From a virus, in IMG/VR virus record IMGVR_UViG_3300023179_000245, positions 1-39,110 of that record: 39,110 bases of DNA; one strand, given 5' to 3'. Of this stretch, positions 1 to 39,110 are shown in pieces. Position 1 is the first letter of the stretch, and every line of letters starts with the position of its first letter. The notes beneath the pieces are model-generated. The model was given only the letters and a program-made list of their open reading frames with translations, ran no database searches and was not told where the DNA came from. The translations under genes were made by a program, and so were the position numbers.

Positions 1-3000
1 GTGTACAAGGCATACAGGGCGTACAAGGCATACAGGGCGTACAAGGCATACAAGGTGTACAAGGCATACAAGGTGTACAAGGCATACAAGGTGTACAAGG
101 TATCCAGGGCGTACAAGGTATCCAGGGTGTACAAGGTATCCAAGGTGTACAAGGTATCCAAGGTGTACAAGGTATACAAGGTATTCAAGGATATAGTATT
201 ATATGGAAAGGAACTTGGGATTCTTCTACAACATATTATCAAAATGATGTAGTATTCTATGATGGCGCTTCATATATTGGAGTTAATACTACTCCAACTG
301 GTTTCACAAATCAAAGACCTGAAACTAATGATGTAGTTAATACCACATATTGGAATATGATGACCAGCCAAGGTATCCAAGGTATCCAAGGTGTACAGGG
401 TATTCAAGGTGGTCAAGGTATACAGGGCGTTCAAGGTATACAGGGCGTTCAAGGTATACAGGGTATTCAAGGTGTACAGGGTATTCAAGGTGTACAGGGT
501 ATTCAAGGCGGTCAAGGTATACAGGGTGTACAGGGTATCCAAGGTGTACAGGGTATCCAAGGTGTACAGGGTATTCAAGGTGTACAAGGCATACAGGGCG
601 TACAAGGTATTCAAGGTGTACAGGGTATACAAGGTGTACAGGGCATACAAGGTGTACAAGGTATACAGGGTGTACAAGGTATTCAAGGTGTACAGGGTAT
701 TCAAGGCGGTCAAGGTATCCAAGGTGTACAAGGTATCCAAGGTGTACAGGGTATCCAAGGTGTACAGGGTATCCAAGGCGGTCAAGGTATACAGGGTGTA
801 CAAGGTATCCAAGGTGTACAGGGTGTACAAGGTATTCAAGGTGTACAAGGTATCCAAGGTGTACAAGGTATCCAAGGTGTACAAGGTATCCAAGGTGTAC
901 AAGGTATCCAAGGTGTACAGGGTATCCAAGGCGGTCAAGGTATACAGGGTGTACAAGGTATACAGGGTGTACAAGGTATTCAAGGTGTACAGGGTATCCA
1001 AGGCGGTCAAGGTATACAGGGTGTACAAGGTATTCAAGGTATTCAAGGTGTACAAGGTATTCAAGGTGTACAAGGTATACAGGGTGTACAAGGTATTCAA
1101 GGTGTACAGGGTGTACAAGGCTTCCAAGGTACTAAGGGTGAGGGCTTTACATTCTTGGGTGATTGGAGTTCAATCACAAGATACGTTAAGAACGACTCTG
1201 TTTACTATAATGGATCAAGCTATACCAGCACATATGGTGATGAAACCTATGCTGGCGGCGCTTATGTTAACCTAAACCAAGTTCCAGGTAGCCTAGTAGA
1301 TATTACAGGTGTGGGCCTAACAGCTACCAGCGGTGTGTTTACTTGTAATGCTGTCAATATTTACAAAGCTGAAATTATTAGAGTCAGTGGTACAGTACCA
1401 GCTGGATTTACCATTGAGAATCCAGATAGTCCCGCCCAAGCACCAACATATTATACAGCTGGACAAACTGTTAATAATGATTACTATGTAATTGATTATC
1501 CAAACAACCCAGCTACTGGATTTACATTGGGTCGTAGCCAATTCGCTACAACAGCTATTGGTACTACTGGAACAGGTAGCTTAACAGGATTAACATTCAA
1601 GGCTATACCATGGTTGATCATTAGTGCTCAAGGCATTCAAGGCGTACAAGGTGTACAAGGTATACAGGGTGTACAAGGTATACAGGGTGTACAAGGTATA
1701 CAGGGCGTTCAAGGTATACAGGGCGTTCAAGGTGTACAGGGTATTCAAGGTGTACAAGGACGCCAAGGTGTACAAGGTATTCAAGGTGTACAGGGCGTTC
1801 AAGGTATCCAGGGTGTACAAGGTATTCAGGGTATTATTGGTACACCAGGTGGGTATACAGCAGCCTACTTATGGGATAGTGCAACTACAGCCAGTGACCC
1901 AGGACCAGCTAATGTTAGAATAGGTCGCAGCTGGACTACAACCACTGCTGGTAATACTAACTTATATTTTGATATCATAGACGCAGATGGTCAGGATAGA
2001 ACAGCTTGGTTAAGCGCATTTACATTCTTCGGTTCACAACAGAGCTATTTTGGTACACTAACAATAATGCCAGAAGGTTCATCAAACCAAAGATGGTCAG
2101 GTATTATTACCAGTGTAACCAATAATACTGGATGGTTCAATATTGGTGTATTGTTTATTGACAGTCAAGGTACAGCACCAACAGCAGGGCAAAAAGTTAA
2201 CATAGCATTCCAGCCAGCTGGTCAACAAGGTATTCAAGGCGTACAAGGTGTACAAGGTATACAGGGTGTACAAGGTATACAGGGTGTACAAGGTATACAG
2301 GGTGTACAAGGTATTCAAGGTGTACAAGGTATTCAAGGTGTACAGGGCGTACAAGGACGTCAGGGCGTACAAGGTATTCAGGGCGTACAAGGTATACAGG
2401 GCGTACAAGGTATACAGGGCGTACAAGGTATTCAAGGTGTACAAGGCATACAAGGTGTGCAAGGCATACAAGGTGTACAAGGTATTCAAGGTGTACAAGG
2501 CATACAGGGCGTACAAGGTATTCAAGGTGTACAGGGTATACAAGGTGTACAAGGCATACAAGGTGTACAAGGTATACAGGGTGTACAAGGTATTCAAGGT
2601 GTACAAGGCATACAGGGCGTACAAGGCATACAGGGCGTACAAGGTATTCAAGGTGTACAGGGTATACAGGGTGTACAAGGTATACAAGGTGTACAAGGTA
2701 TTCAAGGTATTCAGGGTTCAAGTATTGTTTGGAAAGGAGTATATTCTCCAACTACAATTTATAACACTAACGACGTAGTATTTGAAAATGGACAGAGTTA
2801 CATTGCCGTATATGGTAGTGGTAATAGTGCTAACCTTACTGGTGTTGCTATTGGATCAAGTGGATCATTTACTTGTACCGCGGGAGCAACTCTAAGAGTT
2901 GGTGATCAGATTACTGTATTAGGCGTTAACACTGGCACTGGCTCTATTACAGGCTACAACAGTGCTGGCACAAATTACTACATTACAGCTACAAATGGTT

Positions 3001-6000
3001 CAACATCATTCACCTTAAGTGCTACATTAGGTGGTGCAGCAGTAACAACCAGTGCTGGTACAGTAGCAGGTGGCATGATCTTTACACATCCAACAGGATT
3101 TGGAAATCAAAGACCAACAATAACCAATACTACATATTGGAACTTGATGACCAGTCAAGGTATCCAAGGTATCCAAGGTGTACAAGGCATACAAGGTGTA
3201 CAGGGTATCCAAGGCGGTCAAGGTATTCAGGGTGTACAAGGTATTCAGGGTGTACAAGGCATACAAGGTGTACAAGGTATCCAAGGTGTACAAGGTATAC
3301 AGGGCGTACAAGGTATTCAAGGTGTACAGGGCGTACAAGGTATACAGGGTGTACAAGGTATTCAAGGTATTACTGGTCTTGGTATTACTTGGAAGGGTAC
3401 TTGGAATAGTACAACTATTTACAACAGCAATGACGTTGTATTTTATAATGGTAATAGCTGGATCGGTGTTCGTGGTACAGGCAACAGCGTAGCCCTTTCA
3501 GGTGTAAGCATTGGCGCAAGCGGTGTAATCACATGTACAGCAACAACATTGCCAGCAGGATTCCAAGTTGGTGACCAAGTATTAGTAGCAGGTATCAATA
3601 GTGGAACTGGATCATTACCAAGCTATAATGCTGTTGGTACTTATTATTATATTATTAGTACAAATGGTTCAACCTCATTAACCATAAGCACAACATTAGG
3701 TGGAAGTGCTGCTGCTACAGCCGCTGGCACCGTTAGTGGAGCAATGACCTTTACTGTGGCTACAGGCTTTGGTAATGTCATTCCAAACCTAACCAATACA
3801 AACCATTGGAACCAAATGACCAGCCAAGGTATTCAAGGTATCCAAGGTGTACAAGGTATCCAAGGTGTACAAGGTATACAGGGCGTACAAGGTATACAGG
3901 GCGTACAAGGTATTCAAGGTGTACAAGGTATACAGGGCGTACAAGGTATTCAAGGTGTACAAGGTATACAGGGCGTACAAGGTATTCAAGGTGTACAAGG
4001 TATTCAAGGTGTACAAGGTATTCAGGGCGTACAAGGACGTCAGGGCGTACAAGGTATCCAGGGCGTACAAGGTATCCAGGGAGTACAAGGTATACAGGGC
4101 GTACAAGGTATACAGGGCGTACAAGGTATACAGGGTGTACAAGGTATACAGGGTGTACAAGGTATACAGGGTGTACAAGGTATACAGGGTGTACAAGGAC
4201 AACAAGGTATTCAAGGTTCAGGCTTTAAGTGGCGTGGTGTTTGGAAGCCAGAGAATGACTATGCTGTCAGTGACATGGTTTCACATTTGGGTAGTACATA
4301 TGTTAGCTTAACAGCATATATTCCACAAACTTTAGCCAGTGTATCAATATTAAGTAGTGGTCAGATTAGCTTTAATAATCCAACAAATGCTGCCTCTGTT
4401 GGTCAGGTTATATATGTTAATGGTGTTAAGACTGGATCAGGTGTATTACAAAATTATGCTAGTACAGGGACAGCCTATTATGTTAAGGCTGCTAGTATTG
4501 CTGGTGGAACAACTACAGTAACATTAAGCGGTGACGCTCCAAGAAGTAATGTAACAGGTACATTAAGTGGCACAACAATAAGTGGATTAGCTACTACTAG
4601 TACTTTATATGTTGGAATGTCTCTAACCAAAGTATCAGGAACTGGTGTTTTCAATGGAACTCCAACTATCACTGCTATTAATAGTTCCACACAAGTTACT
4701 ATAAGCACTTCAGCTACGTCAAATGGATCAATAACATTTAACGCAACTGGAGCTACAATAACTAGTACTGCTGGAACAAGTACGGGAATGAGTTTCTATA
4801 TTCCAACTTATGTTCCTAACTTACATACCAGTACAGTATACAATGCACTTGGTCCTAGTCCTGAATCAGAATATGAAAGATGGGAATTAGCGGGTTCACA
4901 GGGTATCCAAGGTATTCAAGGTGTACAAGGTATTCAAGGTGTACAGGGTATTCAAGGTGTACAGGGTATTCAAGGAGTACAAGGTATACAAGGTGTACAA
5001 GGTATACAGGGTATTCAAGGTTCAAGCTTTACTTGGAAAGGCATCTATTCAGCTAGTACCAGCTACTCAGCTAATGATAGTGTGTTCTATAATGGTAACA
5101 GCTATATTGCTATATATGGTAATGCTAATAGTGAAAACTTAAATGGTGTAAGTATTGGAAACAGCGGTACATTTACTTGTTCAGCAACAACTAAGACATT
5201 AGTAGTTGGAACAGGTGTTAAGGTAACTGGTATAGCAGCTGGTACAGGAAATATTAGTGGATTCTCAGATCCAACAACATACTATATTACTGCTACGAAC
5301 GGAAGTACAAGCTTTAACCTAAGTGCTACACTTGGCGGAGCACCAGTAACAACAACCTCGGGCACCAGTACTGGTTTAACATTTATGTGGCCAGTGAGCT
5401 TTTCTAACCAAGTTCCAGCAAATGGTCAGCCACCAGTAACTAATAGTACATATTGGAATCAGTTAACAAGCCAAGGTATCCAAGGTATTCAAGGTGTACA
5501 GGGTATTCAAGGTGTACAAGGTATACAGGGTGTACAAGGTATACAAGGTGTACAAGGTATTCAAGGCGTACAAGGTATTCAAGGCGTACAAGGTATCCAA
5601 GGTATCCAAGGCTTCAGCGTAACATATCAAGGTGCTTACAATCCTTCTACAACTTATACACAGAATGACGTAGTATTTGAAAATGGACAGAGTTGGATAG
5701 CTATATGGCCAATAACAACTGGAACATTTAGTAATATTCGTCCAGGTGTTACAGCAGGTTGGGCCACATATTGGGGCAGATTAAGTCAACAAGGTATCCA
5801 AGGTGTACAGGGTGTACAAGGTATTCAAGGTGTACAAGGTATTCAAGGCGTACAAGGTCGTCAAGGCGTACAAGGTATTCAAGGTGTACAAGGTATCCAA
5901 GGCGTACAGGGTATCCAGGGTATCCAAGGTTTAAGCATTAATTGGATAGGTACATATAACCCAGCAACAGCCTACAGCCAGAATGATGTAGTATTTGAAA

Positions 6001-8237
6001 ATGGTCATAGTTGGATTGCTATCTATCCATATGCTAATGGTACATTTACAAATATCAGACCAGGTGTTACAGCAGGTTGGGCCACATATTGGAATATGAT
6101 GACCAGCCAAGGTATCCAAGGTGTACAGGGTGTACAAGGTATTCAAGGTGTACAAGGTATTCAAGGCGTACAAGGTCGTCAAGGCGTACAAGGTATTCAA
6201 GGTGTACAAGGTATCCAAGGCGTACAAGGTATCCAAGGTGTACAGGGTATACAAGGTGTACAGGGTATACAAGGTGTACAGGGTATACAAGGTGTACAGG
6301 GTATACAAGGTATACAGGGCTTCAGTGTAACTTATAGAGGAATATATAATCCTTCCACAGTATACACACAGAATGATGTAGTATTTGAAAATGGACAAAG
6401 CTGGATTGCTGTATATCCAATAACAACAGGCACATTTAGTGGACAGCGTCCAAGTCTAGCAAATACAACGTACTGGGGTCAATTAACAAGCCAAGGTATT
6501 CAAGGTGTACAAGGTGTACAGGGTATACAAGGTGGTCAAGGCATACAGGGTGTACAAGGTATCCAAGGTATCCAAGGTGGTCAAGGTATCCAAGGTGTAC
6601 AAGGTATTCAAGGCATACAGGGTGGTCAAGGTATACAAGGTGGTCAAGGTATCCAAGGTATTCAGGGTGGTCAAGGTATTCAGGGTATACAAGGTGGTCA
6701 AGGTATACAGGGCGTCCAAGGTGTACAAGGAATCCAAGGTGGTCAAGGTATACAGGGTGTTCAGGGCATACAGGGTATTCAGGGCTTCAGTGTAACCTAC
6801 AGAGGTATCTACAATAACGCTACTGTATACACACAAAACGATGTAGTATTTGAAAATGGACAAAGCTGGATTGCTGTATATCCAATAACAACAGGCACAT
6901 TTAGTGGACAACGTCCAAGCCTAGCAAATACAACATACTGGGGCCAACTAACAAGTCAGGGTATCCAAGGTATCCAAGGTGTACAAGGCATACAGGGTGG
7001 TCAAGGCATACAGGGTGTACAAGGTATCCAAGGTATCCAAGGTGGTCAAGGTGTACAAGGTGTACAAGGTGTACAAGGCATACAGGGTGGTCAAGGTATC
7101 CAAGGTGTACAAGGTGTACAAGGCATACAGGGTGGTCAGGGTATACAAGGTGTACAAGGTATACAAGGTGTCCAAGGTCGCCAAGGTATCCAAGGTGGTC
7201 AGGGTGTACAAGGTGTACAAGGTATCCAAGGTATCCAAGGTGGTCAAGGTATACAGGGCGTCCAAGGTGTACAAGGTATCCAAGGTGGTCAAGGTATACA
7301 GGGTGTACAGGGTGTACAAGGTATCCAAGGATTCAGCGTAACATATCAAGGTGTATACAACAATACGACAACTTATACACAAAACGATGTAGTATTTGAA
7401 AATGGACAAAGTTGGATAGCTATATATCCTGTAACTACAGGGACATTTAGTGGAATAAGACCAGGAGTAACAGCGGGTTGGGCTACTTATTGGGGCAGAT
7501 TAAGTCAACAAGGTATCCAAGGAATTCAAGGTGGTCAGGGTATACAGGGCGTTCAAGGTATTCAAGGTATCCAAGGTGGTCAGGGTATACAGGGCGTTCA
7601 AGGTATTCAAGGTATCCAAGGTGGTCAGGGTATACAGGGCGTTCAAGGTATTCAAGGTATCCAAGGTGGTCAGGGTATACAGGGCGTTCAAGGTATACAG
7701 GGAGTCCAAGGTTATCAAGGTACTCAAGGCGTCCAAGGATTCCAAGGATTCCAAGGATTCCAAGGTTATCAAGGTACTCAAGGTCAGCAAGGTATACAGG
7801 GTCAACAAGGTACTCAAGGTCAGCAAGGTATACAGGGTCAACAAGGTACCCAGGGTCAACAGGGCATCCAAGGTCAACAGGGTACCCAAGGTCAGCAAGG
7901 TATACAGGGTCAACAAGGTACCCAAGGTCAACAAGGTGTACAAGGTCGTCAAGGCGTACAAGGAACTCAAGGTCAGCAAGGTATACAAGGCTTCCAAGGA
8001 TACTATGGTAATACAGGTGCTCAAGGTACTACAGGTACTACAGGTACTACAGGCTTACAGGGATTACCAGGACCACAAGGTACAGATGGTACTCAAGGTT
8101 CAACCGGAGCACAAGGTTCAACTGGAGCACAAGGTGCAGATGGAACTATTGGAACATTAAGTCTAGCCCAAATAAAGGCTGCGGTAAACAGTAGTCCAAC
8201 ATACGAAGAGTTTGTGGCATATATTCAAGGGTTGTAA
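1..8237 (+). CDS. Giant collagen-like tail fibre with CBM5/12-like inserts (5' end outside window)
   Basis: The reading frame (first full codon at 3) is open to the left edge, so the ATG at 357 is an internal methionine and the gene is 5'-partial; about 2,744 residues are visible. Thirteen Gly-X-Y tracts, mostly GIQGVQ hexapeptides, alternate with 12 globular inserts at about 192-368, 1135-1628, 1836-2225, 2715-3158, 3372-3824, 4218-4898, 5022-5471, 5613-5789, 5931-6107, 6321-6491, 6783-6956 and 7331-7508. Eleven of these carry a motif like [13 protein letters not shown] preceded by W-x-G-x-(Y/W) and followed by a W near the end, which resembles CBM5/12 chitin-binding modules. Four inserts carry an additional beta-rich module ([16 protein letters not shown] type). 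The C-terminus switches to GQQGTQ repeats, then a proline-containing GLPGPQG stretch and a short non-collagen end. Expected to be a trimeric, host-contacting fibre on the virion. The collagen and CBM-like reading is firm; the exact receptor is unknown. Confidence 0.93.
6321..6956 (+). repeat. Duplicated CBM-like inserts (6321-6491 and 6783-6956)
   Basis: The two inserts share long stretches of nearly identical DNA, for example around the NDVVFENG motif and the following [16 protein letters not shown] segment, with only scattered, mostly synonymous changes. The related inserts at 5613-5789 and 7331-7508 also resemble each other, with a shared [15 protein letters not shown] end. This suggests domain duplication or recombination through the flanking collagen repeats. 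Confidence 0.85.
7530..7709 (+). repeat. 45-nt perfect tandem repeat inside the fibre gene
   Basis: A 45-nt unit coding for [15 protein letters not shown] starts at 7530, 7575, 7620 and 7665. The first three copies match exactly, including synonymous positions, and the fourth diverges in its last third. This looks like a very recent tandem duplication. Confidence 0.9.
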
Positions 8238-8253
8238 TAGGAGATGATAAAAG

Positions 8254-11200
8254 ATGTCAATTAATTTAGATCAGACGGGCCCAGCGCATTTATTAAGCAC
8301 CGATGAAGATGGTCTGATCCTTAATGGCAGTCCAGTCATCTCAAAGAGTATTCATGTCAGCAACATTGAGCCAAAGACCTATTTCGGTGATACTAACACA
8401 AAACTACTATGGTTAGACACTGGTACACAAGGTATTAGTGCGTTTCCTAATGGTGGAGCAGCCAATTGGATATTAAGAACTAACGGAAATGGTACAGTAA
8501 GTTGGACCCCGCCAAGTGCATTAGATGCAACAAAGTTTCATTATCGCATCAGCACAGCTATATTTGACGATCAAGATCCTACATCTGGATTCATAAGATT
8601 TGTTAATAGAACTGGTGCTACGATGTCAACAGCCACTCAACTTACCATAAGTGGATATACAATTGCCGGAGATCCTAATTATGTAGTTGGCGCCACACCA
8701 GCAGTGTCTAGTTATAATTTGATTAGCAGTTTTATTAATAGTTTGACCAGTTATGGTAATAGTAACCGTAGAGGATTTATTAAAATAGAAAAAGAAAATG
8801 ATCCAAATCATTTTCAAATATATGAATTTAGTAACATTACAGATAATATAGGTTGGTTTACAATTAATGTAGTTCCTATAAGAATAGATTCAGGTGATGA
8901 AAACTTTCCTAATAATGAACCAGTCAGCGTAACTTTTAGTGTTGCTGGTCCACAAGGAGTTACTCAAGACCTAACAAATTATGTTACATTTAATGGTACA
9001 CAAAATCTTAAAATAAAAACTTTAACTAAACCTTTTATTGTAGAACCTGTACTTAAGGAGTCTACTTTTAGTTTAACTGGAGTCAGTATTGCAGCTAACG
9101 GAGTAATAAATTGTAATGCTAAGACTCTTAACTCAGTTACTATCGAAGCAAATGGAAGTTTTCAATGTACATCTGATTCATTTGCCATAAATGATGCTAT
9201 CTATATTAGTGGCACGTTGACTGGAACTGGAACTATTACCGGTTATACTACTGGAACAACATATTATGTTGTAGGAACAAATAGTAATACATCATTTACT
9301 CTCAGTACTAGCTTGGGTGGCAGTCCTATTACTACAAGTACAGGAACTAGTACTGGTCTTACTTTTACCAAGATAATTTTTAATATAAATGATATTGTAA
9401 AAGTAACAGGTAATAATGATGGTGACGGTGTGATAGCTGGTTATGATAATAACGGATCATTATATTTTATAGTTGCTACTAATGGCAGAAATCAATTCAC
9501 TCTAAGTGAGAACATAGCAGGAATAGCAGTTACAACCACTGCTGGTACAGTTTCAGGTGCTATGACATTTACTAGTAATGTTGGAACTAGTATTACTTTT
9601 GATGATGGATTTAGCAACAATGGTTATGAAACCAAACTTACAGTACTAAAAAATACAGCAGATCGTAAAATTATATTACCAGATGCGGATACAACACTAG
9701 TTGGTATTGATAATACTCAAACTTTAACAAATAAAACTATAACATCTCCAGCAATTATCGATCCAAATATTAACTTGACTTATACTGGCGGGGCTACTGC
9801 TAAAAATATCACAGTATCAAGTGGACTGGCCACTGATTTTAAAACAAGAATTGGCACTACAGCCAATAATCAATATAGTTGGACTACTAATCTTTACTAT
9901 AATGGCACAATTTGGGTTAAGGATGATCCTCTAAGAGGTGCTTGGAGACTGAATCAAGTGGCTCTTGATGCTGACAATACTAGTGAAATAGCCATAACCT
10001 ATGCTCCAATTGGTACTCCTAATGTACAAGACTACTTAAAAATAGATGGATTAGGAGTAGTTAGACTACCAATTAATGTAGCTAGTACCAATACTACTAC
10101 AGGAACATTGGTAGTGAATGGTGGTGTTGGTATTGCAGGCACAGTTAATATTGGAGGAAATACAAATATAACTGGAGCATTAGATGCAGGTAGTTTACAG
10201 TCTACTCCAATCGGTACAACTTTTAGATCAAGTGGAGCATTTACTACGTTAGCTGCTAATGGGGTATTTGAAGTAACTGACAATACCGCCAGTACTAGTC
10301 AAACAACAGGTGCAGCAGTTATAACAGGTGGGTTAGGAGTCGGTGGTGCTGCTCATATTAATGGACCTGTGTATCTAAATGATTTAGATGAATTAGAAAC
10401 ACAAAAAGCAGGTTATAGTCTAGTAGTTCAAAATCCTCAAGCAAAAGTTAGGGTTGGTCCTAGTTATACTTTAACTGATATAGACTATATTGATCTTATT
10501 ACACTACCAAATCGACCAAAGATATCAACAACTAGTGATGATTTCTTATTTGAAAATGTTAAAGTTGGTGGTAATATAACATTAACTGCTACTGATGCTG
10601 CCGTAATTGTTTCAGAAAATACAGAAGCAACAGATAAAATTACTGGTGCATTACAGGTTGTGGGCGGATTAGGTGTTAGCTTAGATATACACGCAGATGA
10701 TATCTATGTATATGGACAAACAGGACTATCAAATACAGCAAGTCAAGTAGTTAGTTTAGCTGCCACACAAACTTTAACAAATAAAACTCTTACATCGCCA
10801 AATATAAGTGATGTAGTTCTTACAGGTACTATTAATACTGGTGCAAATACTCCAGGTATTGCCGGACAATTGCTATCTAGCACAGGAACAGGTATTGCTT
10901 GGGTTAATCCTGTGAACACCAGTGCTATAGTTTATTATAAATCCAGCGACCAAAACATTAACCCATCAGGCGATGTGACTATGCCAACAAGTTCAACTAT
11001 AAGTATTGGTAGTAGCTTTGGCTCTATGGCAGGTAATGGCAGTGGTATATTTACTTTTAGTGTTGCAGGAACTTACCAAATTACTGTTAATTATAGTATT
11101 ACTGATATTAATGGTGGTGCCACATATCCTGTAGTTGATTTTTGGCTTAAGAAGAATAATTCAGATACAATAAAATATTGCCAAGTTTTGACAAATGGTA

Positions 11201-11340
11201 GTAGAAGAGGTGCTGTAACTGAAATCGTATCATTTGCTGCTAATGATACATTGATTTGGTATGCCAATAGTACAATGAGAATTAATGGAGGAAATCCAAG
11301 TGCTACAGGCAGCAGATTAACTATAGTTCGAGTAGGATAA
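8254..11340 (+). CDS. Second fibre/structural protein with C1q/TNF-like C-terminus
   Basis: A 1,028-residue protein starting MSINLDQTGPAHLL, with AGGAG 10 nt upstream of the ATG and 16 nt after the giant fibre stop. Residues about 95-230 resemble the insert at 1836-2225 of the previous gene (NIGWFTINV against NTGWFNIGV, both ending in V-x-(V/I)-x-F-x-x-A-G). Residues about 270-450 hold two copies of the beta module seen in several fibre inserts (SNTSFTLSTSLGG). TQTLTNKT motifs at about residues 488 and 839 and three GGxGV motifs are typical of phage fibre and needle-like proteins. The last ~135 residues (FSVAGTYQITVNYS, then a basic loop and a closing hydrophobic strand) look like a C1q/TNF jelly roll, a common trimerising receptor-binding tip. 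Likely a virion appendage. The domain readings are by eye. Confidence 0.88.
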   Translation: MSINLDQTGPAHLLSTDEDGLILNGSPVISKSIHVSNIEPKTYFGDTNTKLLWLDTGTQGISAFPNGGAANWILRTNGNGTVSWTPPSALDATKFHYRISTAIFDDQDPTSGFIRFVNRTGATMSTATQLTISGYTIAGDPNYVVGATPAVSSYNLISSFINSLTSYGNSNRRGFIKIEKENDPNHFQIYEFSNITDNIGWFTINVVPIRIDSGDENFPNNEPVSVTFSVAGPQGVTQDLTNYVTFNGTQNLKIKTLTKPFIVEPVLKESTFSLTGVSIAANGVINCNAKTLNSVTIEANGSFQCTSDSFAINDAIYISGTLTGTGTITGYTTGTTYYVVGTNSNTSFTLSTSLGGSPITTSTGTSTGLTFTKIIFNINDIVKVTGNNDGDGVIAGYDNNGSLYFIVATNGRNQFTLSENIAGIAVTTTAGTVSGAMTFTSNVGTSITFDDGFSNNGYETKLTVLKNTADRKIILPDADTTLVGIDNTQTLTNKTITSPAIIDPNINLTYTGGATAKNITVSSGLATDFKTRIGTTANNQYSWTTNLYYNGTIWVKDDPLRGAWRLNQVALDADNTSEIAITYAPIGTPNVQDYLKIDGLGVVRLPINVASTNTTTGTLVVNGGVGIAGTVNIGGNTNITGALDAGSLQSTPIGTTFRSSGAFTTLAANGVFEVTDNTASTSQTTGAAVITGGLGVGGAAHINGPVYLNDLDELETQKAGYSLVVQNPQAKVRVGPSYTLTDIDYIDLITLPNRPKISTTSDDFLFENVKVGGNITLTATDAAVIVSENTEATDKITGALQVVGGLGVSLDIHADDIYVYGQTGLSNTASQVVSLAATQTLTNKTLTSPNISDVVLTGTINTGANTPGIAGQLLSSTGTGIAWVNPVNTSAIVYYKSSDQNINPSGDVTMPTSSTISIGSSFGSMAGNGSGIFTFSVAGTYQITVNYSITDINGGATYPVVDFWLKKNNSDTIKYCQVLTNGSRRGAVTEIVSFAANDTLIWYANSTMRINGGNPSATGSRLTIVRVG

Positions 11341-11392: not shown

Positions 11393-12136
11393 ATGCAAGA
11401 ACTAGGAATGTATTGCCTATCATATGTAGGCAAAGAACCAAAAAAACATCAGTTTGACCAGCGCAATTTAATGTGCGGTTCGGTCAATTACCATCAATTT
11501 GACGTTTTAGAGATGCAGCGTCGTGGTTTCCTTATGGATCACGTAGGTGAAAACATTAGTCATATGAATAGTGACTTTGGTAGCCTAACTGGAATATTTT
11601 GGGTTTGGAAAAACGTAGACCATGAATATAAAGGGACTAATACCTATAGAATTTTTTGGGATGAATCTTTTGATTTAAGACCAAATAGGGTATATATTCC
11701 ACAACCAAAAGACATAGTAACTGCTATAAAAGGCTATGCACCTCATGTAAACAGTGTGTATGATCATTTTAGTCATTGTCATAATAACTTAGGATGGCAG
11801 CTATTATATGGCCTAGCAGGAGATAGACGTATTCCTATTACTGTAGATATGATAGATCAATTAAGAACTTACAAATATCTAATTCCATTCCATATGTTTA
11901 CTAGTGATAGAATAACATTTAATCGTATTTGTGAAATACTTTTTCAAGTATTATTTGAATTTCATTCAAATTATTCAAATATTTTACCTGAAATATACAG
12001 GCGTAATCAACAGGTTAGGTTTTATGACTTTTTTGGTGAGAGAATATTACACTTGATTTTAACTAACAACTATCATTTTTTAGGAAATGTAGATATAGCA
12101 CATTTAAATATATTGGACATTGACCATAATGCTTGA
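11393..12136 (+). CDS. DUF4422-type glycosyltransferase
   Basis: A 247-residue protein. The segment GENISHMNSDFGSLTGIFWV followed by WKN and Y-R-I-F matches the DUF4422 hallmark (NIS..N....LT..YW.WKN...HYRR) found in capsule and exopolysaccharide glycosyltransferases, and FYDFFGERILHLIL matches its conserved C-terminal R-x-x-G-F-x-x-E-R-x-L block. It probably transfers a sugar in the cytoplasm, either to a virion component or to a host glycan. There is no signal peptide or membrane segment. It is the first gene of a three-gene run with the methyltransferase and GT2-like genes, behind a sigma70-like promoter. The second Arg of the usual HYRR is not clear (T-Y-R-I-F here). The ATG lacks a Shine-Dalgarno; an in-frame ATG at 11408 is the alternative start. 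The acceptor is unknown. Confidence 0.75.
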   Translation: MQELGMYCLSYVGKEPKKHQFDQRNLMCGSVNYHQFDVLEMQRRGFLMDHVGENISHMNSDFGSLTGIFWVWKNVDHEYKGTNTYRIFWDESFDLRPNRVYIPQPKDIVTAIKGYAPHVNSVYDHFSHCHNNLGWQLLYGLAGDRRIPITVDMIDQLRTYKYLIPFHMFTSDRITFNRICEILFQVLFEFHSNYSNILPEIYRRNQQVRFYDFFGERILHLILTNNYHFLGNVDIAHLNILDIDHNA

Positions 12137-13382
12137 AAATAAAATACAACCACATTTATTAAGATATATTGAAAACCCATCAGATCCAGAATTAAATTTT
12201 ATGATGGCTTTAGAGTATGATGTGATGGGCCAACATGCCAGTGCTGTCAGTTATTACTTAAGAACAGCTGAAAGGGCACATACTGATCTGCTAAAATATG
12301 AAGCTTTAATTAGAGCAAGCATTTGTTTTGAAAGACAGGGTAGTAGGAACTTTACAGTGAAAGGATTACTACAACATGCTGTAGCTATATTACCAGGTCG
12401 TCCAGAAGCTTACTATCATCTAAGCAGATTTTATGAACACAAACAGGATGATGGGCATTGGAATGATACTTATATGATTGCCACTGTTGGTGAGAGTGTA
12501 GCAGACAATATTAGTGAAGGGTTAAGAACAGATTTAAGTTATTTGGGCAAAGATCATTTAAAGTTTCAAAAAGCACTAAGTGGTTGGCATTGTGGATTAT
12601 GTGATGAGAGCAGAACAATATTTAAAGAGCTTATGCGTAGTAAAGTACTCCCTAATGATTATAAAAAAATTGTATATAATAATTTAAAGTTTATGAGTGG
12701 TTATATTGAGATACCTTTTGATGCTTATGACAATACTAAATATTCTAAATTAAGATATAAATTTCCAGGTGCTGAAAATATTGAAACAAATTATAGTGAA
12801 GCATATCAGGATATGTTTGTTCTTAGTATGCTTAAAGGTAAGAGAGAAGGTACTTTTATTGAGGTTGGTGCAGGTAGACCATTTTACGGAAATAATACTG
12901 CTCTACTAGAAAAACAATTTGGATGGAGAGGCATCAGTATTGATATTGATGAACGTCAAGTTACTAACGATCGTAAAACACCATTCCTAATTAAAAATGC
13001 CTTAGAAATTGATTACGGTAAAATTATCACAGAATTAAACTTAGGCCCAGTAGTTGACTACCTACAACTTGATTGTGATCCACCTGAAGTAACATTTGAA
13101 ATACTAAAACGTATTCCTTTTAATGAATACAAATTCAAAGTAATAACATATGAACACGATTATTATAATACAGACAAAAAAGAATTACGTGAACAGTCTC
13201 GTCAATATTTAGAATCAAAAGGCTATACACTAGTAGTAAATGATATTGCACCAGATGAATGGCGTAATTATGAAGATTGGTATGTGCATCCGGATTATAT
13301 TGATAAAGATATAATGTTGGTAATGAAAGATCGCCGTGATATAGTGAAAAAAGGCGAAGACTATATTTTATCAGGAAATTAA
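12129..13382 (+). CDS. TPR-like plus FkbM-family methyltransferase fusion
   Basis: A 417-residue protein starting at the ATG that overlaps the previous stop by 8 nt; the TTG three codons earlier (12120) is a weaker choice. Residues ~1-190 are helical with alternating A, Y and R typical of TPR-like repeats (LNFMMALEYDVMGQHASAVS, EAYYHLSRFYEH). Residues ~215-400 form a SAM-dependent methyltransferase of FkbM type: SEAYQDMFVLSML, then motif I FIEVGAGRPFYGNNT (about 242-256), the acidic strand end ISIDIDE, VDYLQLDCDPPE and VITYEHDYY. This architecture is familiar in T4-like aquatic phages near glycosyltransferases. It probably O-methylates a sugar. Substrate unknown. Confidence 0.82.
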   Translation: MLENKIQPHLLRYIENPSDPELNFMMALEYDVMGQHASAVSYYLRTAERAHTDLLKYEALIRASICFERQGSRNFTVKGLLQHAVAILPGRPEAYYHLSRFYEHKQDDGHWNDTYMIATVGESVADNISEGLRTDLSYLGKDHLKFQKALSGWHCGLCDESRTIFKELMRSKVLPNDYKKIVYNNLKFMSGYIEIPFDAYDNTKYSKLRYKFPGAENIETNYSEAYQDMFVLSMLKGKREGTFIEVGAGRPFYGNNTALLEKQFGWRGISIDIDERQVTNDRKTPFLIKNALEIDYGKIITELNLGPVVDYLQLDCDPPEVTFEILKRIPFNEYKFKVITYEHDYYNTDKKELREQSRQYLESKGYTLVVNDIAPDEWRNYEDWYVHPDYIDKDIMLVMKDRRDIVKKGEDYILSGN

Positions 13383-13385
13383 TTT

Positions 13386-14165
13386 ATGATTCCAGTAATA
13401 GGTACCTGTGTAGTTTTTACTACACATTGGGTTGAACGTTTATTAGCCAGCGTAGATTTCCCTGTAGAAAATTTCCTTATTATTAATAACAATGGTAAGG
13501 GAGAAATTACAGAAGACTTAGATGCATTGGCTAATATCAAACGTCATTATATTAAAAAAGTTCATGTTATTCATATGCCTTGTAATTTAGGGGTTCCAGC
13601 AAGTTGGAATCTAATAATTAAAAGTTATATGATGGCTCCATATTGGGTAATTGTAAATGATGATGTAGCATTTGGTTTAGGATTATTAAAAGAAATATAT
13701 GACACTGTTAACGAAGACCCAGAGGTAGGTATTATACATGCTAATCAAGGTGATTTTAATGTGGGTAGTTGGGATCTCTTTATTTTAAGAGATCACCTTG
13801 TGGCTAAATTTGGGCTGTTTGATGAAAATATGTATCCTGCCTATTGCGAAGATGACGATTATATTATGCGTATGATGCATGCCGGAGTGAAGAAAAAGCT
13901 AGGCTTAACTAAAAATTATCTACACGGACACGGCGATAAGACCGAATACCATTTCCATGGTGGTAATACACGAAGGCACGATCCTGAAGTTATGAAAAAG
14001 TTGGATGAGGCTAGAGATATGAACATAGAATATCTCACATCAAAGTGGGATAAACACTGGCGTACCTGTTGGCCCACACAAGAACCATGGTTAGGTCAGC
14101 CGCATAGTTTGACTGAACAAAGATATGATTTGGAATTTTTACGTAAAAAGTATGTAGGATTTTAA
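13386..14165 (+). CDS. GT2-like glycosyltransferase
   Basis: A 259-residue protein, three bases after the methyltransferase stop. It has the GT-A layout: a hydrophobic N-terminal strand (PVIGTCVVFT), a conserved N-L-G-x-x-x-x-W-N segment (NLGVPASWNLI, residues ~76-86), a metal-binding motif in DxD position as VNDDV (residues ~89-93), and the acidic motif EDDDY at about 154-158, where the catalytic base of GT2 enzymes is expected. Many His residues follow (HGHGDKTEYHFHGG). Soluble, no membrane segments. It probably works with the DUF4422 and FkbM proteins upstream. Its stop overlaps by 4 nt the stop of the convergent Nudix gene, and no terminator is visible between them. Confidence 0.8.
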   Translation: MIPVIGTCVVFTTHWVERLLASVDFPVENFLIINNNGKGEITEDLDALANIKRHYIKKVHVIHMPCNLGVPASWNLIIKSYMMAPYWVIVNDDVAFGLGLLKEIYDTVNEDPEVGIIHANQGDFNVGSWDLFILRDHLVAKFGLFDENMYPAYCEDDDYIMRMMHAGVKKKLGLTKNYLHGHGDKTEYHFHGGNTRRHDPEVMKKLDEARDMNIEYLTSKWDKHWRTCWPTQEPWLGQPHSLTEQRYDLEFLRKKYVGF

Positions 14166-16239: not shown

Positions 16240-16326
16240 TTAAACCGAGGCCTCCATCCAAACACGTTTACCATCTACGAGCTTCCATGTTTTACCTCGA
16301 CAATGAGTAAACTTATAGATATGCAT
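16240..16326 (-). CDS. Small 28-residue ORF between gp14 and gp15
   Basis: The ATG overlaps the gp14 stop as TAATG (16324-16328). The predicted peptide begins MHIYKFTHCRGKTWKL and ends in VWMEASV before TAA at 16240-16242. Its DGKRVW resembles the DGKRW of the gp14 C-terminus. It is in the same frame as gp15, separated by TAA, two codons and TGA. It may be a real small protein, a remnant of a longer gene, or a device that delivers ribosomes to the gp15 start. No function can be assigned. Confidence 0.5.
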   Translation of the reverse strand: MHIYKFTHCRGKTWKLVDGKRVWMEASV

Positions 16327-17642
16327 TATAAATCTGCCTTGGGTCTTAAAACTTTACTGAGCGCCTGTCTTTCTGGAACAGCTTCACCATTAATAATATT
16401 AACATTAGTATTATTAATAAAGCCTGTTTTTTGTGTAGTTCTAACTACACGCCAAAAAGTTGGATGATCTATTGGATTTTTATTAAGGCTAGGTGCCACA
16501 GCAATATATTGTACAGTTCCATAGTTAATTAAATCGTTAATTACATATGAAATTGTGGGATCAAATGCACCTCTAGGAGTAGCGAAGTTAGCGTCCGTAT
16601 TTGTAAACGTGTGCCTTATAGCATCTTCTACCTTAATCCATCTTTTTCCATCATATCTAAATAATCTATTAGGAGCAAAATCTGTTCTTAAGAAATAATC
16701 ATTAACGTATGGATCAGCAGGAAAGGTTATACCATGACCAAATTCATAACCGTTAGGAGGAAATCCATCTCCTAACAGGTATCCTGTATATCCTGATCTT
16801 ACTGCACGACCGTGTATTCTACTAGTGTCTAGCCCAGTGCTACTTGCGTCTATATCAGTTTGATCAGCAGTTTCTATTACAGGTTTACCAGTTGTACGAT
16901 CTATGGCCAAAGTATAAAATTGTCTAGTTTCAAATCCATTTTGAGCAGCATCGGCCTCTGCTTGATTTATTATAGCATCATTTATTTGTAATTCTTGACC
17001 TTTAGTGCTTAATATTTCACGTAAAGTTTGATCACTAGGATTACCATTTGCGTCTCTAGCAGGTTGATCTAATATATCTGCAAATGTTTGACCGTCTACT
17101 ATTTTCTTAAGTTTTAATCTGTATAAATGTGGCCACCAAGTTTGACTGAATCCTTCACTAGCACGACTAACATCCTCTATAACAAAGTATCGTGGTAAGG
17201 CAATATTATAATCATTAAGAGCATATTCGTCTATAAGATGAGGTAATTCAAAAACATCACCACTCAATGGTTTGCGCCCCACAGTTTTAATCCAATCGTT
17301 AATATGAACTGTGGCAAAAATGGTGTCGTTATCTATAAAAAGCCCAAATTGGCTGAGATTGAAGTCTAAATTTTGTACTTGGTAATGTCCTCTTATTTTA
17401 TAAATGCTAGGGTCATATTTTCTGTCACGATTCTCCAGCAGCAATAAATCTTGTATATTACTTTCCTTAGTTTCAGCATAGTGAGGCTGGTCTGCGGTGG
17501 CATTTTCTGGAGCCGTATTCGAACCAATATATTTGTGTAAGTAGAAATCAGTACCCCCAATTTGGAACATTTCACTGATCTGTCGATCTATGAATTTAAA
17601 ATCTTTTCCACGTTCTGGACGATATAGACTTAGGCGGGGCAT
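16326..17642 (-). CDS. 14: Neck protein gp14
   Basis: A 438-residue protein (MPRLSLYRPERGKDFKFIDR). The segments FQIGGTDFYLHKYIG, LLLLENRDRKYDP, DFNLSQFGLFI, ELPHLIDEYAL and EDVSRASEGFSQTWWPHLYR are those I associate with the gp14 neck protein of cyanophage-type T4-like phages. T4 gp14 itself is shorter (256 aa). It acts at the head-tail junction with gp13 and gp15. The C-terminal part holds a small W-rich module (NRLFRYDGKRWIKVED) that resembles motifs in gp15 and in the second fibre protein. It is transcribed leftwards, divergent from gp13. Directly upstream is ATAAATA, four bases, then ATG, with no Shine-Dalgarno. Confidence 0.85.
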   Translation of the reverse strand: MPRLSLYRPERGKDFKFIDRQISEMFQIGGTDFYLHKYIGSNTAPENATADQPHYAETKESNIQDLLLLENRDRKYDPSIYKIRGHYQVQNLDFNLSQFGLFIDNDTIFATVHINDWIKTVGRKPLSGDVFELPHLIDEYALNDYNIALPRYFVIEDVSRASEGFSQTWWPHLYRLKLKKIVDGQTFADILDQPARDANGNPSDQTLREILSTKGQELQINDAIINQAEADAAQNGFETRQFYTLAIDRTTGKPVIETADQTDIDASSTGLDTSRIHGRAVRSGYTGYLLGDGFPPNGYEFGHGITFPADPYVNDYFLRTDFAPNRLFRYDGKRWIKVEDAIRHTFTNTDANFATPRGAFDPTISYVINDLINYGTVQYIAVAPSLNKNPIDHPTFWRVVRTTQKTGFINNTNVNIINGEAVPERQALSKVLRPKADL

Positions 17643-38185: not shown

Positions 38186-39110
38186 AAAGGGTAATAATGT
38201 AGAGTTCTTATTAGGTGTAGAAGACTATCTAAGGTATTTAGATAATGCTAGTTATGCTGATAGATTACACACTTTTTCTAGGACAATAAATTCAGAGTCA
38301 AAAGAAGAAGATAGTATACGGGCATTTTTTCAAGATTTTGGGTCAGTATTACAAAAGGATCATAGAAATTATGCTGATTTATTACATGGGTTTTGTAAGA
38401 ATTCAGATGCAATCTCGTTAAAAAAAATAAGTTTACATTTTTTTGGCAAAATTATAACTGATATTAATCTAGTAGATTTTATTTTTGGTATCCTTAAGGG
38501 ACAATCTAATATTGGATTTTATAAAGCTACATTACAATATGTTATAAAATTAAATCTTCATAATTTAATTTTGAATGATTTAATACATGGCATAACTACT
38601 AAGGCTGAATCGAATGAATTGGTTTATAAATCATTATTACAATATGTTCTAAAATTAAATGTTAATGGTTTAGAATTAAATGATTTAATACATGGCATAA
38701 CTACTAAGGCTGAATCGAATGAATTGGTTTATAAATCATTATTACAATATGTTCTAAAATTAAATGTTAATGGTTTAGAATTAAATGATTTAATACATGG
38801 CATAACTAAGGCTGAATCGAATGAATTGGTTTATAAATCATTATTACAATATGTTCCAAAATTAAATGTTAATAGTTTAGAATTAAATGATTTAATACAT
38901 GGCATAACTAAGGCTGAATCGAATGAATTGGTTTATAAATCATTATTACAATATGTTCTAAAATTAAATGTTAATAGTTTAGGATTAAATGATTTAATAC
39001 ATGGCATAACTAAGGCTAATTCAGAAGAAACTGTATATAAATCATTATTACAATATGTTCTAAAATTAAATGTTAATAGTTTAGAATTAAATGATTTAAT
39101 ACATGGCATA
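38178..39110 (+). CDS. Tandem-repeat protein, 3' end outside window
   Basis: The ATG at 38178 overlaps the previous stop by 8 nt, and the frame stays open to the right edge (311 codons visible). The N-terminal ~110 residues (VEFLLGVEDYLRYLDNASYA, SIRAFFQDFGSVLQKD) are helical. A degenerate repeat follows, and then near-identical 34/35-residue repeats of the form NDLIHGIT-KAESNELVYKSLLQ-YVLKLNVN(G/S)LEL. The period and the Leu/Ile spacing suggest an alpha-helical solenoid, as in TPR or HEAT-type arrays, but the sequence matches neither consensus that I can see. It is co-oriented and overlapping with the glycosyltransferase-like cassette, so it may be an adaptor or an acceptor. No function is known to me. 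Confidence 0.8.
   Translation, partial: MSEKGNNVEFLLGVEDYLRYLDNASYADRLHTFSRTINSESKEEDSIRAFFQDFGSVLQKDHRNYADLLHGFCKNSDAISLKKISLHFFGKIITDINLVDFIFGILKGQSNIGFYKATLQYVIKLNLHNLILNDLIHGITTKAESNELVYKSLLQYVLKLNVNGLELNDLIHGITTKAESNELVYKSLLQYVLKLNVNGLELNDLIHGITKAESNELVYKSLLQYVPKLNVNSLELNDLIHGITKAESNELVYKSLLQYVLKLNVNSLGLNDLIHGITKANSEETVYKSLLQYVLKLNVNSLELNDLIHGI
38574..39110 (+). repeat. 102/105-nt tandem repeat array at the right edge
   Basis: The 21-mer that encodes NDLIHGI recurs at 38574, 38679, 38784, 38886, 38988 and 39090, so unit lengths are 105, 105, 102, 102 and 102 nt. The 3-nt change is loss of one of two ACT codons. Middle copies are almost identical at the DNA level. The array continues past the window. 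Confidence 0.93.

Follow-up and report, generated by a model that had tools for sequence, protein, structure and literature searches.

A very large, probable virion-fibre gene of a jumbo myophage, built of almost proline-free collagen-like tracts and CBM5/12-fold beads

The window analysed here comprises all 39,110 bases of an IMG/VR virus record and derives from a T4-like jumbo myophage, of whose genome it is a fragment. Neighbouring the gene described below are genes for a tail sheath stabiliser, tail sheath, tail tube proteins, a large terminase and gp32-like and UvsX-like proteins. The large terminase shares 54.6% identity with its counterpart in jumbo phage PA5oct and 50.2% with the one in Sinorhizobium phage Phosso. 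No isolated lineage matching the virus was found, and a host search among cellular genomes with the sheath stabiliser returned no relative. The right edge of the window (38531–39110) is occupied by a 102-bp tandem repeat (5.6 copies, 94% match), where an ORF encoding 34-residue repeats runs off the end. At the left edge, in the tail and packaging region with the sheath, tube, sheath stabiliser and terminase genes, lies the 3' part of a giant fibre gene. Its frame (frame 3) contains no stop from base 3 until 8235–8237, and needs no start at the left edge. That edge falls within an 18-bp tandem repeat and is likely an assembly break. The features of the locus are as follows.

3–8237, + strand: part of the giant fibre gene for the final 2,744 residues, open at the left, stop at 8235–8237; full-length relatives exist
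189–371, + strand: bead 1, CBM5/12-fold, 58 residues plus the preceding triplet
372–1145, + strand: collagen-like tract of 86 triplets
1146–1631, + strand: bead 2, FTFLGDW type with a long insertion of its own, present in all full-length relatives
1857–2219, + strand: insert 3, a module of another type than CBM, which aligns with the N-terminal part of the following gene's product
2724–3158, + strand: bead 4, with a nested module of about 85 residues
3384–3827, + strand: bead 5, with the nested module (model mean pLDDT 79.9)
4224–4892, + strand: bead 6, with the nested module and a further insertion inside it
5028–5474, + strand: bead 7, with the nested module
5610–5792, + strand: bead 8, simple CBM5/12-fold (modelled, mean pLDDT 88.9)
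5928–6110, + strand: bead 9
6318–6494, + strand: bead 10
6792–6959, + strand: bead 11
7338–7511, + strand: bead 12
7512–8159, + strand: last collagen-like tract, 72 triplets (72, 91 and 100 in relatives)
8160–8234, + strand: short C-terminal segment of 25 residues, similar in relatives
8254–11340, + strand: next gene, 1,028 residues, with two module types in common with the giant fibre and 10 relatives in viral contigs

A mechanical split of the ORF yielded 13 unbroken Gly-X-Y tracts, 475 triplets in total, which are separated by 12 inserts. From the N- to the C-terminal end the tracts measure 21, 86, 25, 56, 25, 44, 15, 16, 16, 24, 33, 42 and 72 triplets. A degenerate core of the CBM5/12 type (aromatic-x-G-x-aromatic...Y..N-D-x-V) was found in 11 of the 12 inserts, six of which carry the literal string NDVVFENG and five variants of it. 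The first-pass annotation had described a single protein of at least 2,744 residues, open at the left, in which GIQGVQ tracts alternate with 12 inserts, 11 of them with such a core; this plan is borne out, with the literal NDVVFENG confined to the six. Two features are additional to that description: four inserts hold the module of about 85 residues nested within the CBM domain, and a different insertion is present in insert 2. The exceptional insert 3 (residues 619–739) is a different, non-CBM domain; its alignment with the N-terminal part of the following gene's product shows 23% identity. The nested module also recurs in the next gene (window 9061–9645; hhalign probability 98.8%), whose product is probably a second fibre protein. 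For the nested module and the GGYT module, sequence searches against solved structures gave marginal matches or none, and the structural matches of the nested-module model were weak. No annotated phage with close homologues of two of the window inserts was found.

Further along the window, a virion structural protein encoded at 16326–17642 (− strand) contains a bead-like CBM5/12 segment in its C-terminal part (hhalign 92%, E 6.2e-7), so that this module is used by more than one virion protein. Following the fibre genes, the region 11393–14165 encodes a DUF4422 protein, a protein with a weak TPR match and a glycosyltransferase-2-like protein; in the relative L078, ORFs of 247, 417 and 259 residues occur in the same order. 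The products of this region might glycosylate the fibre.

The tracts have glycine at every third residue throughout their length, and the whole protein scores 604.8 bits against Pfam Collagen (PF01391; cut-off 27.2). As had been noted at first pass, the triplets are made of Ile, Val and Gln with almost no proline. The X position is Ile in 212 and Val in 172 of the 475 triplets (384, or 81%), the Y position is Gln in 447 (94%), and proline occurs three times in about 950 X and Y positions (about 0.3%). The 144 GIQGVQ units are written in 29 DNA spellings, which indicates that the pattern is kept at the level of the protein and is not an accident of DNA repetition. Studied collagens are proline-rich at X or Y, and these tracts are not. 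In viral collagens proline takes on average 22% of X positions, and the collagens of E. coli phages are proline-rich at X and almost devoid of Val and Ile (PMC3368898). A triple helix with a proline content of about 0.3% and 81% Ile or Val at X would be unlike the phage collagens studied, which weighs against the trimeric rod proposed below. Among the papers searched, none has the GIQGVQ motif and none combines phage collagen with glutamine-rich sequence.

Relatives of the fibre gene were located through its neighbouring genes. The true start had been placed to the left of the contig edge, and uncut copies in three metagenomic relatives do extend far beyond it, with 6,003, 6,249 and 6,482 codons; the records that hold them measure 399,796, 183,192 and 159,920 bases, respectively. 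All three begin with MSVLKRYFQG. The 6,003-codon relative (G001) was read fully and comprises 29 tracts with 1,194 triplets; the others were read over 6,197 and 6,364 codons, ending within the last collagen-like tract, and hold 1,425 and 1,156 triplets in the stretch read. Each sequence as read contains 24–25 CBM cores, corresponding to about 25 beads per chain. The inserts of the window match those of the C-terminal part of G001 in order and type, and the window is accordingly equivalent to some 45% of the chain. The N-terminal domain of the full-length fibre gave weak matches, mostly to phage families of unknown function and some in Dickeya and Erwinia phages. In G001, matches to tail-fibre and structural proteins were found in the gene cluster upstream of the fibre gene.

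The DNA is repetitive, the contig is broken inside a repeat and all copies, including every full-length one, come from metagenomic assembly of such repetitive sequence, which weighs against the fibre reading and raises the question of whether collapse or expansion of a repeat, and not a single gene, gave rise to the long ORF. Long stop-free frames are, however, present on several independent contigs, their codon spelling is varied, and several genomes have in common both the order of distinct inserts and the tract lengths. An assembly artefact is thus very improbable and was rejected on the strength of the independent contigs and the codon variety. The gene is real and very large, and probably encodes a virion fibre.

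Other observations were made in the same set of genomes. One bead of G001 is broken by a glycine-rich domain (L080, at about residues 2955–3292 of the fibre ORF). Further collagen-like matches lie in separate, smaller ORFs of G001 (C1:52142-52567, 365 residues), G005 (C1:126546-128012, 905 residues) and G006 (C1:125824-126087, 425 residues). Two more distant genomes, G010 and G011 (L085, L086), encode large proteins with tandem CBM5/12-like repeats and no collagen-like tracts.

Ten consecutive tracts are equal in length between the window and G001 (25, 56, 25, 44, 15, 16, 16, 24, 33 and 42 triplets), while the flanking tracts are unequal (86 versus 69 and 72 versus 91). Across the same comparison 16–42% of codons differ where the residue is unchanged, and the inserts are 46 to 98% identical. 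Since tract lengths are identical despite this abundant synonymous change, and despite a next gene product that shares only about 62% identity between the two genomes, the spacing of the beads looks constrained. Slippage in a 9- or 18-bp tandem repeat should alter lengths easily, and a constraint such as the register of chains in a trimer would explain why it has not. Because the fibre region is closer to G001 than the neighbouring gene is, however, recent exchange could partly explain the equal lengths. A further relative, L079, has the same tract series as G001, but at 92.6% DNA identity to G001 its spacing is not independent. In more distant relatives, tracts of 15 and 16 triplets after one bead type are also present.

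The beads were aligned as 95 non-redundant copies, and this alignment was the basis of the bead model (mean pLDDT 88.9). The best PDB matches of the model were the tail fibre of cyanophage A-1(L) (PDB code: 8kec, TM 0.73), followed by a baseplate protein of the Anabaena contractile injection system and chitinase C, all three with probability 1.00 yet E above 0.001. More broadly, the model matches the A-1(L) fibre, the CBM5 of ChiC and ChiB with probabilities mostly of 0.95–1.00, every PDB match having E >0.001. Of the matches to predicted viral structures, 23 pass E 0.001, and several of the proteins concerned bear the name collagen repeat or tail fibre. At the sequence level, the best solved match of the bead profile is the chitin-binding domain of ChiA1 (E 1.2e-5). 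Pfam CBM_5_12 (PF02839) scores 68.2 bits for the whole protein against a cut-off of 26.2, a total summed over many copies of which the best single one reaches 21 bits. The match to CBM5/12 that had been expected of the inserts was in this way obtained by profile and by model, and the description as CBM-fold beads is supported, by alignment and prediction. Bead-like domains are widespread in phage tail fibres.

The hydrophobic core of CBM5 includes Y265 and W299 in CjCBM5, and an exposed aromatic pair is reported to be almost fully conserved in the family (PMC8449059). By alignment, the core residues correspond to bead positions Y16 and W55, each invariant (95/95 copies), whereas at the exposed pair, which was placed by hand from the alignment, the first position is aromatic in 35 of the 95 copies and the second in none. 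The equivalent of Trp687 of ChiA1 (CBM12), a residue that we take to act in chitin binding, is likewise aromatic in 0/95 copies. The fold thus appears to have been kept while the chitin platform was lost.

These counts bear directly on the original proposal of a multivalent polysaccharide-binding fibre that grips chitin-like matter or a host glycan through CBM5/12 sites. Similarity in both sequence and fold speaks for it, and many copies per chain would yield avidity; the loss of the aromatics at all but the first position of the pair makes it an unlikely account overall. Chitin-type binding by the beads is not supported by the aligned residues, and a chitin-specific main role was ruled out as the best reading. 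It is possible that the beads bind a different glycan by another face.

The same residues would suit beads that are purely structural, acting as trimer clamps or register nodes that start and lock the collagen-like segments of a passive whisker, with host recognition residing elsewhere, for example in the product of the next gene or in other tail fibres. Invariant core aromatics without ligand aromatics in 95 copies are as expected for such nodes, and so are the fixed tract lengths between beads. In A-1(L), the region matching the beads (residues 139–179) lies within the joint domain, which was found bound to the baseplate wedges, and the CBM of the neck fibre of that phage did not bind host cells (PMC10966104). 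Jumbo phage CBB, moreover, is described as bearing hair-like appendages on its tail, to which no gene is assigned. The surfaces of the beads and their nested modules nevertheless differ greatly among copies and genomes, a diversity that a pure clamp would not call for, and with some 25 beads of diverse sequence a function beyond spacing is suggested. A solely structural role is in our judgement doubtful, though to be taken seriously.

The account we favour, and regard as reasonably probable, is that the gene encodes a virion fibre of a T4-like jumbo myophage, with N-terminally anchored chains of about 6,000 residues forming a trimeric beaded rod of about 1 micrometre for the capture of host cells or polysaccharide. 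The N-terminal domain would probably attach the chain to the particle; about 25–30 Gly-(Val/Ile)-Gln rods of the collagen type would follow, linked by about 25 small CBM5/12-fold beads, and the chain would end in the short C-terminal segment. With a rise of about 0.29 nm per collagen residue (PMC3368898), the 1,194 triplets of G001 would correspond to a rod of about 1.0 micrometre, and the range across relatives (1,150–1,425 triplets) to about 1.0–1.2 micrometres, if the tracts are triple-helical. Three chains probably make up this rod, judging from the sequence pattern and 2.9 Å per residue. The fibre would most likely extend from the tail to catch host cells or surrounding polysaccharide, making contact through many weak bead interactions, through its distal end or both. 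The beads would also maintain the register of the three chains, and may touch envelope or matrix material weakly and many-fold. The fibre account is favoured by the resemblance of the bead model to the cyanophage tail fibre and the Anabaena baseplate protein, its best PDB matches, and E. coli phage collagen proteins have been described as trimeric side-tail proteins (PMC3368898). The missing canonical ligand aromatics would weaken the sugar-binding part of the role.

More tentatively, the gene may specify a micrometre-long, almost proline-free collagen tether of a jumbo phage, in which chains of about 6,000 residues carry about 25 beads at fixed spacing, owe their stability to Gly-(Ile/Val)-Gln triplets in a manner unlike studied collagens, and give a capture radius several-fold beyond the body of the phage. 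If so, the fibre would be among the longest of any phage, at about a micrometre compared with 119 nm for the tail hairs of CBB, and could point to the kind of gene behind the appendages of 'hairy' jumbo phages, which have none assigned. Nature would also have provided a case in which to see whether Gln and branched residues can hold a collagen triple helix together almost without proline, which bears on collagen design.

Among known systems, the chitinase CBM5 and CBM12 modules (ChiA1, ChiC, ChiB) have the fold and core aromatics in common with the phage beads and differ in their exposed chitin-binding aromatics, which the beads lack. Proteins named collagen-like in the giant viruses Megavirus and Tupanvirus, which are unrelated to the window phage, hold a domain that matches the bead model in predicted structures. 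The CBM5/12-like fold nearest to the beads is that of the trimeric short tail fibre gp33 of cyanophage A-1(L) (PDB codes: 8ke9/8kec), but that protein has 462 residues in the PDB entry and one matching region, in the joint domain, and the paper describing it makes no mention of 'collagen' (PMC10966104). The side-tail proteins of E. coli prophages (EPclA; PMC3368898) are likewise phage collagen-like proteins, for which a triple helix was shown experimentally and trimeric side-tail fibres were proposed; in contrast to the window fibre, EPclA has a collagen domain of 111 residues, proline at 48% of X positions, nearly no Val or Ile and no series of beads. CRP-114 gp42 and Opt-719 gp10 each carry one such bead at the N-terminus of a collagen-like protein. 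Closest in plan is gp29 of the isolated jumbo Tunturiibacter phage Tunturi_5 (XOB77472.1, annotated as a tail fiber protein), in which several CBM5/12-like beads likewise lie between collagen tracts in one chain, although it is only 1,470 residues long and its collagen is of the Pro/Thr type (GPTGPTG, GATG), with no Gln-type tracts. The alternation of tracts and beads is therefore already known, at smaller scale, in other phages, and what is new here is the size of the protein, its Ile/Val-Gln collagen and the conserved spacing of its beads.
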